In this document: one piece after another, positions 834 through 29,391 of the stretch | Position numbering within the stretch: position 1 is the first letter of the stretch | Layout: each line of letters starts with the position of its first letter | Notes under the pieces: model-generated | What the model was told of the DNA's origin: nothing | The model's database searches: none | Seen by the model: only the letters and a program-made list of their open reading frames with translations | Translations under genes and position numbers: made by a program | Assembly: GCA_015486235.1 (NCBI GenBank) | Contig: WFSD01000267.1 | Location: 1 to 34,553 of the forward strand | Reading direction: 5' to 3' | From: Anaerolineae bacterium | Lineage (GTDB): Bacteria > Chloroflexota > Anaerolineae > S016-19 | DNA length: 34,553 nt

Positions 834-1691
834 TCAACTCCCTGACTCCCTGTAGGAGAGCGTTCGGGCAATTATTTCGTCGATTTCCCTGCGTGCCCTT
901 TGTTTCTGCCGTCGTTCCTTGCGTCGCCGAGGTGCCGGAGCTTTAGCCATCTCATCGCCGAGAGCCTTCTTGAGTGCCAGAGCCAACGCTGTTGGCTCGT
1001 CAGAAGCATCATCCGGCTCAGACACATAGCTCATCGGTTTGCCTTGCCTGGGAGGATGTTGGCCTTTCGACCTGGACGATCGTCCTCGAGAAGACTGCCC
1101 TTCCGTTCTCTGCCTGGGGTTGGATCCTTGGGGCCGTTCCTGCCTTTCTGGCTCTTCCTGAAGAGCTTTCAGGCTCAGATCAATCCGCTCCCGTCTTTTA
1201 TCCAGCTTGATGATCTTGGCCTCGATTTCCTCTCCCTCTTTTACTACGTCTTCCGGCTTCTTGACAAACTGCCAGCTCATTTCCCGGATGTGGAGCATGG
1301 CGTCCCGGCCGACTCCGATATCCACAAATGCTGCGTAAGGGAGGATGCGGGTAACCGTCCCCTTGACGACCTCCCCTTCTTCCAGATCACGCAGACGTTT
1401 GGTTCCAGGGGGAATCATGGTCAAGCTAATGCGATTGTGGGCTCGATCCAGATCCTTGATCCACACCTTGATCGTATCTCCCACGCTTACAACGTCAGAG
1501 GGCTTTGAGATCCGGCGCACGCTCATCTCTGATACATGCACCAATCCGTCCCTGCCGACTCCGATGTCCACGAAAGCACCGAAATCGGTCAGGCGCTTGA
1601 CAGTGCCCTCAAGCTCCATGTTGATGGCGAGCTTTTTGACGATTTTCTTTGGTTTGATAACCCGAACTCGGGATGTTCGTTCTGCCGTCAC
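834..1691 (-). CDS. Two-domain S1 RNA-binding protein
   Basis: This 285-residue protein has two S1 (OB-fold) domains in tandem. The first spans about residues 24-95 (VKRLTDFGAFVDIGVGRDGLVHVSEMS) and the second about 105-175 (VTRILPYAAFVDIGVGRDAMLHIREMS). A basic low-complexity tail of about 100 residues follows, rich in Arg, Ser, Gln and Lys (RQRTEGQSSRGRSSRSKG, then RRRKERRQKQRARRE). S1 domains bind single-stranded RNA, so a cytoplasmic role at the ribosome or in mRNA turnover is likely, but the specific function is unknown; it is too short for ribosomal protein S1. The start is GTG at 1691, with AAGGAGAGG just upstream. It has its own promoter at 1742-1771 and a terminator at 756-785, so it is probably monocistronic. 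Confidence 0.85.
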   Translation of the reverse strand: MTAERTSRVRVIKPKKIVKKLAINMELEGTVKRLTDFGAFVDIGVGRDGLVHVSEMSVRRISKPSDVVSVGDTIKVWIKDLDRAHNRISLTMIPPGTKRLRDLEEGEVVKGTVTRILPYAAFVDIGVGRDAMLHIREMSWQFVKKPEDVVKEGEEIEAKIIKLDKRRERIDLSLKALQEEPERQERPQGSNPRQRTEGQSSRGRSSRSKGQHPPRQGKPMSYVSEPDDASDEPTALALALKKALGDEMAKAPAPRRRKERRQKQRARREIDEIIARTLSYRESGS

Positions 1692-1741: not shown

Positions 1742-1771
1742 ATTATACCAGTAACGCTCGGAGGGTGTCAA
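1742..1771 (-). promoter_or_regulatory. Sigma-70 type promoter of the S1-protein gene
   Basis: On the minus strand TTGACA (1771-1766) is followed after 18 nt by TATAAT (1747-1742). Both hexamers are perfect and a TG step sits just before the -10 box. The predicted start lies about 45 nt upstream of the GTG at 1691. Confidence 0.75.
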
Positions 1772-1776
1772 AATCA

Positions 1777-1952
1777 GCTCACGGAAAGGAATCTCGAAGC
1801 GAATCCAGGGGGCCTCACGGGCCCCAAGATTGCCCATGAGGCATCTTCAGCATCCATCGACCCCAAGCGATGGGGCACGCCATGCTTCGGGCACGTCGAA
1901 AAAGCTCCAGAGGCAGCATGGGGCTTTGATTTGCTTCGAAGGCTCACGGAAA
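1777..1952. repeat. Structured repeat element, copy 1, with flanking direct repeats
   Basis: A 144-bp core (1795-1938) starts with CGAAGC and ends with GCTTCG; extended, the outer stem is TCGAAGCGAAT (1794-1804) against ATTTGCTTCGA (1929-1939). Inside are three inverted repeats: GGGGCC/GGCCCC (1809-1814/1820-1825), CCATCG/CGATGG (1854-1859/1868-1873) and CCATGCT/AGCATGG (1880-1886/1915-1921). The identical 11-mer GCTCACGGAAA occurs at 1777-1787 and 1942-1952, leaving 154 bp between. A diverged second copy with the same core length lies at 29231-29374. It sits between the end of the MoeB-like gene and the S1 promoter and contains no ORF. I infer a small non-autonomous mobile element or a structured RNA; the family is not recognised. 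Confidence 0.65.
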
Positions 1953-5607: not shown

Positions 5608-5650
5608 CGAACGCAAGCCGCACCACGCGCCATCAGGCACGCAATGCAAC

Positions 5651-5811
5651 GACCTTCTCCCATCCGGACTATACCGTCGGCTCTGGATTTGCCGGATCCG
5701 GCTCACCAGATCAGTCCTCGTACTTTTCACGAGGGCTCGCGGGCTTGGCGCTCATGCGCTTTACCGCCGGTCGGGAATTGGCCTGTCAGGCCTCACCCTG
5801 CCCCGAAGGTC
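5651..5811 (-). ncRNA. FMN riboswitch (RFN element)
   Basis: Read on the minus strand, the region has every conserved block of the RFN aptamer: CAGGGTGAGG near the 5' end, AATTCCCGACCGGCGGTA, AGCCCGCGAGC, CTGGTGAGCCGGATCCGG, AGAGCCGACGGTATAGTCC and GGATGGGAGAAGG. The closing stem P1 is GACCTTC (5811-5805) with GAAGGTC (5657-5651). RFN elements bind FMN and switch off riboflavin synthesis or uptake genes. Two terminators follow before the permease gene, so control is by transcription termination: high FMN should stop transcription of the transporter. This is one of the most secure calls in the window. Confidence 0.97.
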
Positions 5812-5868
5812 TTCATCTTATTTGGTTGTACGGCTGGCCAACGATCCTCACTGCCAGCACACTTTCAC

Positions 5869-27260: not shown

Positions 27261-28018
27261 ATCCGCTCATGCCCTTCCCGTGCTACCGGAAAGTTACCCA
27301 GCGCGCCGGAACGAACCAAACCATCGGATATGACTTTGGCAAGCCATCCGCCAAGTACAGCACCGCTGATGAGCCGAGCGATCAGCATGATCGTCAGCAC
27401 GAGGGGTGTTTTATCGGAGTACCAGAAGAAGTAATCCACCACCAGGCTGCCGACACCCGACGCGGCGCCAGCCAGCATAAGGGTGTCGAGCTCATACCTT
27501 TGGTACCCGTAGGCAGCGAACACTATCTCCGCCATGCCGCCCTGGATCAGGCCACTGATAAGCAAGGTGAACCCCCACTGGCTCCCCGCCAGCCATTCTG
27601 CCAGTGCGGCAATGGTCTCGGCGACCACCGCAGCGCCTGGTTTGCGGATGATGTAAGGGGCAACGAGGCCCGCCAGGAACCAGAATCCGTAGCTCAGATC
27701 CTGAATACCTGGGAGAATAGCATTTAGCGGCTTCACCAGATCCCAGACCATGGCCCATCCCAGGAACAGAAGCCCGAACGCCAGTGCCAGATTTGCCACC
27801 AGGACGGCGTCGCGGGTCTTCCACGTCCTGAGCTCGCCGCCGACGCCCCACGCCGCTCCAGCGGCAAGCCCCATGATGGTAAGCACGGCGGCCACCGTTG
27901 GGCTCCAACTTACGTATTCCACTTTCGGCCCCCGAATCACGGCGGCGATGTAGTAAACCAGAAGCGTGAACGCTCCGACCGCAACAGCATAGACCAAAGT
28001 TCTAACGGACTTGCTCAT
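27257..28018 (-). CDS. ykoE: ECF transporter substrate-binding membrane protein YkoE
   Basis: This 253-residue membrane protein has the YkoE core: YGFWFLAGLVAPYIIRKPGA, AEWLAGSQWG, LISGLIQGGMAEIVFAAYGY and QRYELDTLMLAG. YkoE captures thiamine or HMP in the membrane and works with YkoD and YkoC. About 90 extra N-terminal residues with two or three hydrophobic segments (VYAVAVGAFTLLVYYIAAVI, VAAVLTIMGLAAGAAWGVGG) make it longer than the roughly 200-residue B. subtilis protein. The start at 28018 (MSKSVRTLVY) has GGAGG eight bases upstream; a longer open frame to 28072 lacks this. It overlaps thiN by 17 bases. Confidence 0.87.
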   Translation of the reverse strand: MSKSVRTLVYAVAVGAFTLLVYYIAAVIRGPKVEYVSWSPTVAAVLTIMGLAAGAAWGVGGELRTWKTRDAVLVANLALAFGLLFLGWAMVWDLVKPLNAILPGIQDLSYGFWFLAGLVAPYIIRKPGAAVVAETIAALAEWLAGSQWGFTLLISGLIQGGMAEIVFAAYGYQRYELDTLMLAGAASGVGSLVVDYFFWYSDKTPLVLTIMLIARLISGAVLGGWLAKVISDGLVRSGALGNFPVAREGHERI

Positions 28019-28676
28019 GGTATGCACCTCCTCTATCAGATGAGATATGGACCACCCACATCGACCCCTCAACGAGGGAGATCGTTGCTTCGCTGGCTAT
28101 GAACTCATTGCTCACACCCCGCGCGGGCCCCATCAACAGTGTGTCTTCGTGAAGGGGATACAGCAACCCTTTGGTGGAGACCCCGCGGGCATCACCGCTG
28201 AACGGCAGCAGGGAAAGGATGTCCCCCCGCTTCCCCACGATCGTCAGCGTTTCCCCGCTACAGAGCAGGCGTACCGACTGCCAGCCATCCACTATCACAG
28301 CGCGCCGGCCCTGGAGTTCCGGCCTTACCAGGAGCAACAAGTTGGCGATTTCGTGGTCTATCCTTCCCCCCATGGCACCAAGGATAACCAGTTCATCCGC
28401 GCCCTTTCGGGTGGCGTAGAGGATCGCCAGCTCCCCATCTGTCTCGTCTTTCTCGCGAGGATGTCTGATCACAGGAATGCCACTTTTCTCTATCCTGTGG
28501 AGCTTTTCTCGGGGAATGGAATCGAAATCGCCCACCAGCACATCTGCTGTCAGGCCGATGGCTTCGGCGCTTTCGCTGCCCCCATCGGCAGCGACCACCA
28601 GGTCTGGCTGCCCGATGTGCTCTCTCACAAATGGCGTGTCATTGATTGCCTGACTTGCTACCACAATAGCTTTCAT
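28002..28676 (-). CDS. thiN: Thiamine pyrophosphokinase
   Basis: This 224-residue enzyme transfers pyrophosphate from ATP to thiamine, making TPP. It begins MKAIVVASQAINDT and has VVAADGGSESAEAIGL, the active-site VGDFDSI, REKDETDGELAILYA and LGAMGGRIDHEIANLLLL, the hallmark segments of the family. The start at 28676 has GGGAG six bases upstream. The frame is open to 28895, but that would translate the riboswitch terminator and is rejected. It is the first gene after the TPP riboswitch and overlaps ykoE, so salvage (uptake by YkoED, then pyrophosphorylation) is the logic of the operon. Confidence 0.93.
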   Translation of the reverse strand: MKAIVVASQAINDTPFVREHIGQPDLVVAADGGSESAEAIGLTADVLVGDFDSIPREKLHRIEKSGIPVIRHPREKDETDGELAILYATRKGADELVILGAMGGRIDHEIANLLLLVRPELQGRRAVIVDGWQSVRLLCSGETLTIVGKRGDILSLLPFSGDARGVSTKGLLYPLHEDTLLMGPARGVSNEFIASEATISLVEGSMWVVHISSDRGGAYHEQVR

Positions 28677-28844
28677 CTTCTGCTCCCAAAATAACCACGG
28701 ACACAGCAGGAAATGCAGTCCACCACTGCCGACAGCCCTATAGAGCCGAGGAGCGATTGCCGGGTTTGATTTTCCAAACTGCGGTAGCTCATGATGACTG
28801 CTCCGAGAACGCATCATGGACCATGGAGCTCTATCCACATGATG

Positions 28845-28878
28845 AAAAAGGCCACTGCCCCGGGGCAGTGGCCTTTTT
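28845..28878 (-). terminator. Terminator of the TPP riboswitch
   Basis: A perfect 34-nt palindrome (arms of 17, AAAAAGGCCACTGCCCC and its complement) lies 13 nt after the aptamer and 168 nt before thiN. It ends in five T residues on either strand. It is the expression platform: TPP binding should favour this terminator. Confidence 0.92.
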
Positions 28879-28891
28879 CGCGTCGCCGTAA

Positions 28892-29000
28892 GCATTCCCT
28901 ACGCCAGCATTACCCAGGTCAGGTTCCAAGGGTCGGAGACGGGTGAGGCAACAACCTCAAGAGCTCCCTCTCAGCCGGGCATCCCCCCAGCTCCCCTAGC
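28892..29000 (-). ncRNA. TPP riboswitch (THI element)
   Basis: On the minus strand the conserved blocks appear in order: AGGGGAGC, GATGCCCGGCTGAGAGGG, then after a variable P3 arm GACCCTTGGAACCTGACC, TGGGTAATGCTGGCGTAGGGA. These are the CTGAGA, ACCCTT-GAACCTGA and TAATGC-GCGTAGGGA signatures of the thiamine pyrophosphate aptamer. The outer P1 stem is not obvious, so the ends are approximate. It controls thiN-ykoE-ykoD through the adjacent terminator. Confidence 0.96.
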
Positions 29001-29217
29001 ACATATTCGGTTGTCAATCTCCTGCAGTCACCACGCTCAACCGTGATGATTGCATGGCATCTCCTTGCCATCCTTAGGATGTAGTCTCGGCATGTCGCCT
29101 GCAGGCCGAACGAAAGCCGTAGAGCAGGATGTGGCTTGCTCCACACCCAGGTGCGATTCTACTTTCCTGCTTCACCCAAATTTTAATCAAGCCTGCGGGA
29201 AAGTGCAAGAAAGATGA

Positions 29218-29391
29218 AGGCCCGGGAGAGCGAAGCAGTTCCTGGGGGCCCTACGGGCCCCCAGGAGTTCCCGGAACCGTTGTCGCTCTACATCAACCCC
29301 AACGGCAAGTAGCGGATCGCTTCAGAAGCGTCGAGAATGCCCCTGAAGCGATTTCGTGCTTTCGATTTGCTCCGAAATCCCAGGCCCAGGA
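29218..29391. repeat. Structured repeat element, copy 2, with flanking direct repeats
   Basis: The core 29231-29374 is 144 bp, exactly as in copy 1 (1795-1938). It begins CGAAGC and ends GCTCCG (one mismatch in the closing stem). Inside are CCTGGGGGCCC/GGGCCCCCAGG (29241-29251/29255-29265), the block CATCAACCCCAA (CATCGACCCCAA in copy 1), a CTAC/GTAG stem around it, and ATCGCTTCAG/CTGAAGCGAT (29316-29325/29343-29352) at the same offset as the CCATGCT/AGCATGG stem of copy 1. Near-identical 10-mers AGGCCCGGGA (29218-29227) and AGGCCCAGGA (29382-29391) flank 154 bp. It lies between the end of der and the TPP riboswitch. The rest of 29001-29492 holds no supported gene. Confidence 0.65.

Follow-up and report, generated by a model that had tools for sequence, protein, structure and literature searches.

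The window analysed here, a stretch of 34,553 nucleotides from an uncultured Anaerolineae bacterium, contains two copies of a short repeat, each with a predicted promoter close by that faces away from it (Table 1). Downstream of the promoter beside copy 1 lies a gene encoding an S1-domain RNA-binding protein, and downstream of that beside copy 2 lies a thiamin pyrophosphokinase gene preceded by a TPP riboswitch. The same riboswitch also precedes a cobalt-type transporter cluster, with copy 2 upstream of its putative promoter. The window holds an FMN riboswitch as well. The original prediction for this DNA had described two diverged 144-bp cores bounded by CGAAGC and GCTTCG, and both are indeed present (1795-1938 and 29231-29374) with their shared blocks in the order claimed. 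Aligning the window copies with others in the genome, however, sets the limits of the element at GGGA and CCC, which fall outside the CGAAGC/GCTTCG bounds and give a length of 158 bp rather than 144 bp.

Table 1. Positions of the repeat copies and of the features discussed with them in the window.
Feature	Position	Strand	Evidence
S1-domain RNA-binding protein gene, downstream of copy 1 promoter	834-1691	-	Pfam PF00575, E 3.8e-45
Predicted sigma70-type promoter facing away from copy 1	1742-1771	-	Read from sequence: TTGACA (1771-1766), 18-bp spacer, TATAAT (1747-1742)
Target-site duplication ACGGAAA, left copy (copy 1)	1781-1787		Identical 7-mer at 1946-1952, strict register
Family A copy 1 (subfamily c1), 158 bp	1788-1945	+	Model match over the full length, E 1.2e-30; ends align with those of about 160 other copies
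Target-site duplication ACGGAAA, right copy (copy 1)	1946-1952		Identical 7-mer at 1781-1787, strict register
FMN riboswitch	5648-5814	-	Rfam RF00050, 93 bits
Thiamin pyrophosphokinase gene, downstream of copy 2 promoter	28002-28895	-	Pfam PF04263/PF04265
TPP riboswitch, ahead of the thiamin pyrophosphokinase gene	28878-29007	-	Rfam RF00059, score slightly above threshold
Promoter-like site facing away from copy 2	29180-29208	-	Read from sequence: TTGCAC (29208-29203), 17-bp spacer, TAAAAT (29185-29180); -10 box begins 38 bp away from the edge
Target-site duplication AGGCCC, left copy (copy 2)	29218-29223		Identical 6-mer at 29382-29387
Family A copy 2 (subfamily c2), 158 bp	29224-29381	+	Model match over the full length, E 6.2e-41
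Target-site duplication AGGCCC, right copy (copy 2)	29382-29387		Identical 6-mer at 29218-29223

Both window copies were assigned to one MITE-like family, here called family A, about 158 bp long and present in a single uncultured Anaerolineae genome, a fragmented assembly of 441 contigs and 3.1 Mb with 6.8% contamination. With copy 1 as the sole query, blastn found 40 places in this genome, and a covariance model built from 31 copies returned at least 150 matches (best E-value 5e-44), far above chance and bearing out the view of the feature as a repeated element. The 0.73 Mb of sequence that we examined holds 166 full-length distinct copies whose flanks extend for 120 bp or more. The right-end 18-mer, with up to three mismatches allowed, occurs 316 times, compared to once for its reversed control. 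No coding capacity was seen in the family.

Family A ends in terminal inverted repeats of about 18 bp with the consensus GGGannnCGAAGCAAwTC ... GATTTGCTTCGAAAGCCC (written as an end pair, GGGannnCGAAGC and GCTTCGnnnCCC). A GC-rich hairpin lies close to the 5' end (CCTGGGGGCCC...GGGCCCCCAGG), CATCAACCCCAA forms a conserved block, a 3' hairpin overlaps the right terminal repeat, and a central stem is found in some subfamilies. The copies fall into at least three subfamilies, with copy 1 in c1 (mean identity 0.70) and copy 2 in the more uniform c2 (0.86); a further subfamily has the same ends and hairpin plus a CGTCAACCCC block. Nearest-neighbour identity among copies has a median of 0.92 and a maximum of 0.98. 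Over the 13 terminal pairs, 92% of cells in the inverted repeats are paired, compared to 20-53% when the register is slid. The terminal repeats and the 5' hairpin are 92-93% paired and the 3' hairpin is 83% paired; all three are real.

The two window copies had been thought to show compensatory changes in a stem and hence selection on structure, a reading that did not survive comparison across the family. RNAalifold on 31 copies gave a weak consensus (-4.95 kcal/mol), the top covarying column pairs by mutual information among 119 copies are subfamily-specific linkages and not helices, and, taken in the c2 register, the central stem is unevenly kept, being 92% paired in c2 and 61% and 73% paired in other subfamilies. 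Consensus folding and mutual information thus place helical signal only in the hairpins and terminal repeats. If the element were a structured RNA gene or a riboregulator, retained for its fold, this would account for the conserved hairpins near the ends, and for strands that fold better than shuffled sequences (z of -4.3 to -5.4 on the plus strand). However, this excess is largely what the terminal repeats and one GC-rich palindrome would be expected to produce, helical covariation is lacking, and the central stem is not shared by all subfamilies. Moreover, in both main orientations the element lies outside the transcript from the adjacent predicted promoter. The Rfam check likewise gave no match to a curated covariance model, at either gathering or permissive thresholds, and we regard a structured RNA as very improbable.

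Family A is mobile. Identical sequences of 5-8 bp in strict register at both edges, that is, target-site duplications (TSDs), were found in 65 of 138 copies, where fewer than one would be expected when left and right flanks are dealt at random. Their lengths are 5 bp in 31 copies, 6 bp in 25, 7 bp in six and 8 bp in three, with no evident sequence preference. For copy 1, the original prediction had proposed an exact 11-bp flanking repeat as the duplication; the repeat itself is real (1777-1787 and 1942-1952), but only 7 bp of it, ACGGAAA, is TSD, because the GCTC in its right copy belongs to the element end by family alignment and the remaining 4 bp are thus a chance match. The 6-bp TSD of copy 2 had been missed in that earlier reading. 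A search for empty sites found two within the same assembly, both in paralogous or strain-variant segments. At the first, locus L036 has a single GGAAATC (...AACAAGGAAATCTTCACC...) and locus L029 has GGAAATC on both sides of a copy (...AGCAAGGAAATC-element-GGAAATCTTCACC...); at the second, the two flanks of the L166 copy, put together, correspond to 1527-1610 of L163. In a genome of the same genus, the best match to the S1 gene is 37% identical and too distant for such a comparison. The claim of an unrecognised mobile element therefore holds up, given many copies, TSDs, unoccupied sites and the lack of an Rfam match. The family has the marks of a MITE, namely terminal inverted repeats, TSDs, unoccupied sites and many short dispersed copies without a transposase gene, and the feature is a single member of a MITE-like family of non-autonomous DNA transposons.

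When the flanks of the copies were listed, TTGACA- and TATAAT-like strings stood at constant positions. The base composition of outward-reading left flanks, analysed without any motif, departs most strongly at 14-21 and 37-44 bp from the edge, where the consensus reads TTGnnA and TATAAT; right flanks show the same pattern more weakly. We scored promoters with a fixed sigma70 consensus that is independent of these data, and all -35 and -10 boxes given here are predictions in this sense. Indeed, 101 of 160 flank-non-redundant copies have a predicted outward-facing sigma70-type promoter whose -10 box starts 36-40 bp from the element edge, 74 of them at the 5' end of the element and 31 at the 3' end, including four at both (P 3e-5 for the bias between ends). 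Control 5-bp windows elsewhere contain 0-4 promoters each, and inward-facing promoters form no peak. The 36-40 bp window was chosen on the first 116 copies; among the loci fetched later, which served as a hold-out, the rule was obeyed by 21 of 27 usable copies. Family B, taken as a negative control for the rule, offered only four usable copies. Both copies in the window obey the rule, each on its 5' side. This rule, the main and unexpected result here, was absent from the original prediction. The element edge thus lies about 45-50 bases upstream of the predicted transcription start, constant to within a base or two.

The promoters at rule distance look genuine by their sequence context. An ORF of at least 100 aa starts within 350 bp of the edge for 87 of 105 of them, and four lead into tRNA genes whose starts are 55-60 bp from the edge. 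At locus L139, rpsO (S15) and an rlmN-like gene have divergent promoters, and a copy stands at rule distance from each of the two. The other 59 of the 160 copies have no scored promoter at this distance, some with a clear TSD and a few with a weak promoter; they may stem from off-target insertion or from promoters that are weak or use other sigma factors.

TSD length is correlated with the distance from the edge to the -10 box (rho 0.65, P 2e-7). Of 51 copies, 33 have the promoter-proximal end of the TSD 32 bp from the -10 box and 12 have it at 33 bp (45/51 together). Since TSD length predicts the edge-to-promoter distance, it is the promoter-proximal cut that is fixed, at about -44/-45 and 9 bp upstream of the -35 box, the other cut falling 5-7 bp further out. 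Between promoters with 17-bp and 18-bp spacers, the cut moves from 32.15 to 32.80 bp from the -10 box and from 9.15 to 8.80 bp from the -35 box, a partial shift with each box that suits a body touching both. We have hardly any doubt that this insertion geometry is real.

A constant spacing between element and promoter could also be produced if the promoter were part of a larger mobile unit, the apparent target rule then being the element's own anatomy. However, different copies have unrelated sequences (26% pairwise identity) between the boxes and around them, and therefore the promoter is target and not cargo. In addition, the TSD sits between element and promoter, promoters adjoin either end of the element, and the flanks are present without the element at the two unoccupied sites, and we give a larger unit virtually no credence.

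Copies of family A also occur next to one another. There are 11 arrays of adjacent copies, nine of them with a promoter 37-40 bp from an array edge, and between most array units stands a single 5-7 bp sequence, which recurs at the end of the array. This layout fits what repeated insertion at one target would be predicted to leave, and unequal crossing-over could have been an extra source of units. A head-to-tail array at L131 (68-560), with at least three copies of a divergent subfamily and CAGCA between all units, has no scored promoter at either edge. Separately, we observed a second MITE-like repeat of about 150-470 bp with the ends GGTAGCGCTCAAAAGTAGTGGGATG and its inverse (L254 3043-3507, L131 5644-5973, L153 711-901 and L255 2593-2994), frequently nested within family A immediately behind CGAAGTAATT or the opposite-end equivalent.

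Positions next to promoters might alternatively be what selection has left of random insertion, if only copies just upstream of promoters are retained as harmless or as useful regulatory sites. Copies within genes are indeed rare or lost, with only eight of 160 spanned by an ORF of at least 250 aa. Such a filter, however, predicts a spread over harmless upstream positions, and counts outside 36-40 bp are at background. It also leaves unexplained both the coupling between TSD length and distance and the reuse of the same site by successive copies in arrays, and we consider it extremely unlikely. Given that there is no positional spread and that TSD length is tied to distance, targeting is therefore most likely a property of the transposition reaction.

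We then looked for relatives of family A and for an enzyme that could move it. None was found in 40 genomes of relatives by blastn or, with the covariance model, in 119 genomes of the class and 399 other genomes of the phylum; nothing similar was found by either method in the same-genus genome, and phages, plasmids and viral contigs gave no match. In the 0.73 Mb examined of the 3.1 Mb assembly, there was no autonomous copy or transposase with family A ends and no ends-plus-TSD pair enclosing a long ORF; every pair of ends 0.6-6 kb apart with a TSD proved to be an array artefact, except for one at L139:1270 that matched by chance. Transposase models from Pfam gave six matches to PF01609 (DDE_Tnp_1), three to PF00665 (rve) and one below cut-off to PF13701 (DDE_Tnp_1_4), with none in the genome to PF01526 (Tn3 transposase). 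Scanning the PF01609 and PF00665 loci for family A ends revealed no matching pair. The transposase may have been lost, or it may be absent from the fragmented assembly.

Family A inserts with a staggered target cut of 5-7 bp, and we propose that this is the work of a transposase acting in trans, whose identity and class we infer. The transposase would strike at a fixed place relative to sigma70 promoters, cutting proximally 32-33 bp before the -10 box begins (about -44/-45) and distally another 5-7 bp out. The core promoter would then stay intact, with the element abutting the upstream portion of the footprint of RNA polymerase, which at bacterial promoters is occupied by the alpha C-terminal domains. 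As the cut position matches this upstream footprint, we suggest docking on the promoter-bound holoenzyme, such that the transposition complex would measure its distance by contacting the polymerase, with the alpha C-terminal domain or sigma region 4 as candidate contacts. Judged from the geometry, RNA polymerase is probably the guide.

The main alternative to such a guide is a DNA-binding partner that reads the promoter. Here the transposase or a partner protein would recognise promoter DNA, through a domain reading TTGACA/TATAAT, or the adjacent shape, without RNA polymerase. Such a reader would likewise fix the distance, and it is compatible with a DNA-binding target selector as in Tn7-like elements. 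However, a reader of a single box would lock to that box, whereas the cut shifts partly with both; the promoters used vary widely in sequence, and the TSDs lack an evident preference of their own. We therefore think a promoter-DNA reader unlikely. As a whole, a MITE-like family with a transposase in trans and a cut site measured from the polymerase is the best explanation and, in our judgement, a likely one.

To our knowledge, the ends, TSD length and sequence of family A match those of no MITE family. In the part of a 2024 review of prokaryotic MITEs consulted here, these elements are described as carrying promoters and as lying in AT-rich intergenic DNA (PMC10969869). Those covered there, such as Correia of Neisseria, the QMITEs of Coxiella and MITEAba12 of Acinetobacter, resemble family A in being short, with terminal inverted repeats, TSDs and no coding capacity seen, and also in being mostly intergenic, hairpin-rich and high in copy number (PMC10969869). 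Family A differs from them in its fixed distance from host promoters, and neither such a distance nor RNA polymerase is mentioned in that part of the review (PMC10969869). No bacterial precedent for the insertion rule was found in the literature searched, where most subscription papers fell outside coverage; as far as found in that literature, this is a new MITE family with an undescribed target rule. How a transposon chooses harmless places in a gene-dense bacterial genome can be read here from the sequence, almost to the base pair, and the copies mark about 100 predicted promoters of an uncultured organism. Should RNA polymerase be the guide, this would constitute a new targeting principle in bacteria and possibly a tool by which DNA could be inserted ahead of active promoters that stay unbroken.

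Several known groups share single traits with family A. The miniature elements of the Tn3 family (TIMEs) have GGG-starting ends, 38-bp repeats, TSDs of about 5 bp and no coding capacity; family A is like them in its ends, TSDs and lack of coding capacity, but its repeats span about 18 bp instead of 38 bp, and the missing PF01526 match also speaks against membership. Derivatives of IS200/IS605-type (Y1) elements use subterminal hairpins as recognition sites and make no TSD, whereas family A has TSDs, though with hairpins near both ends. In Tn7-like transposons, including CRISPR-associated ones, a target selector sets the insertion distance; TSDs are 5 bp, orientation is biased and the ends start with TGT. 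Family A is similar in its fixed insertion distance, TSDs of around 5 bp and orientation bias; however, its ends are GGG/CCC and not TGT, its TSDs range from 5 to 7 bp, and we identified no Tn7-like gene, just the three rve-domain matches, so that we do not place it among them.

Closest in targeting are Ty3 of yeast and TRE5-A of Dictyostelium, retrotransposons that are guided by RNA polymerase III factors and integrate at a fixed place relative to the polymerase start, leaving the gene functional; TRE5-A does so about 50 bp upstream of tRNA genes. A fixed distance from start sites of this kind was found for family A against predicted promoters. Those elements are eukaryotic retrotransposons, whereas family A is a bacterial DNA element at sigma70 promoters. 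We favour, with moderate confidence, the view that family A is their bacterial counterpart, for which the target selector would be the host holoenzyme on a sigma70 promoter and the cut would fall at about -45 with near single-base precision.
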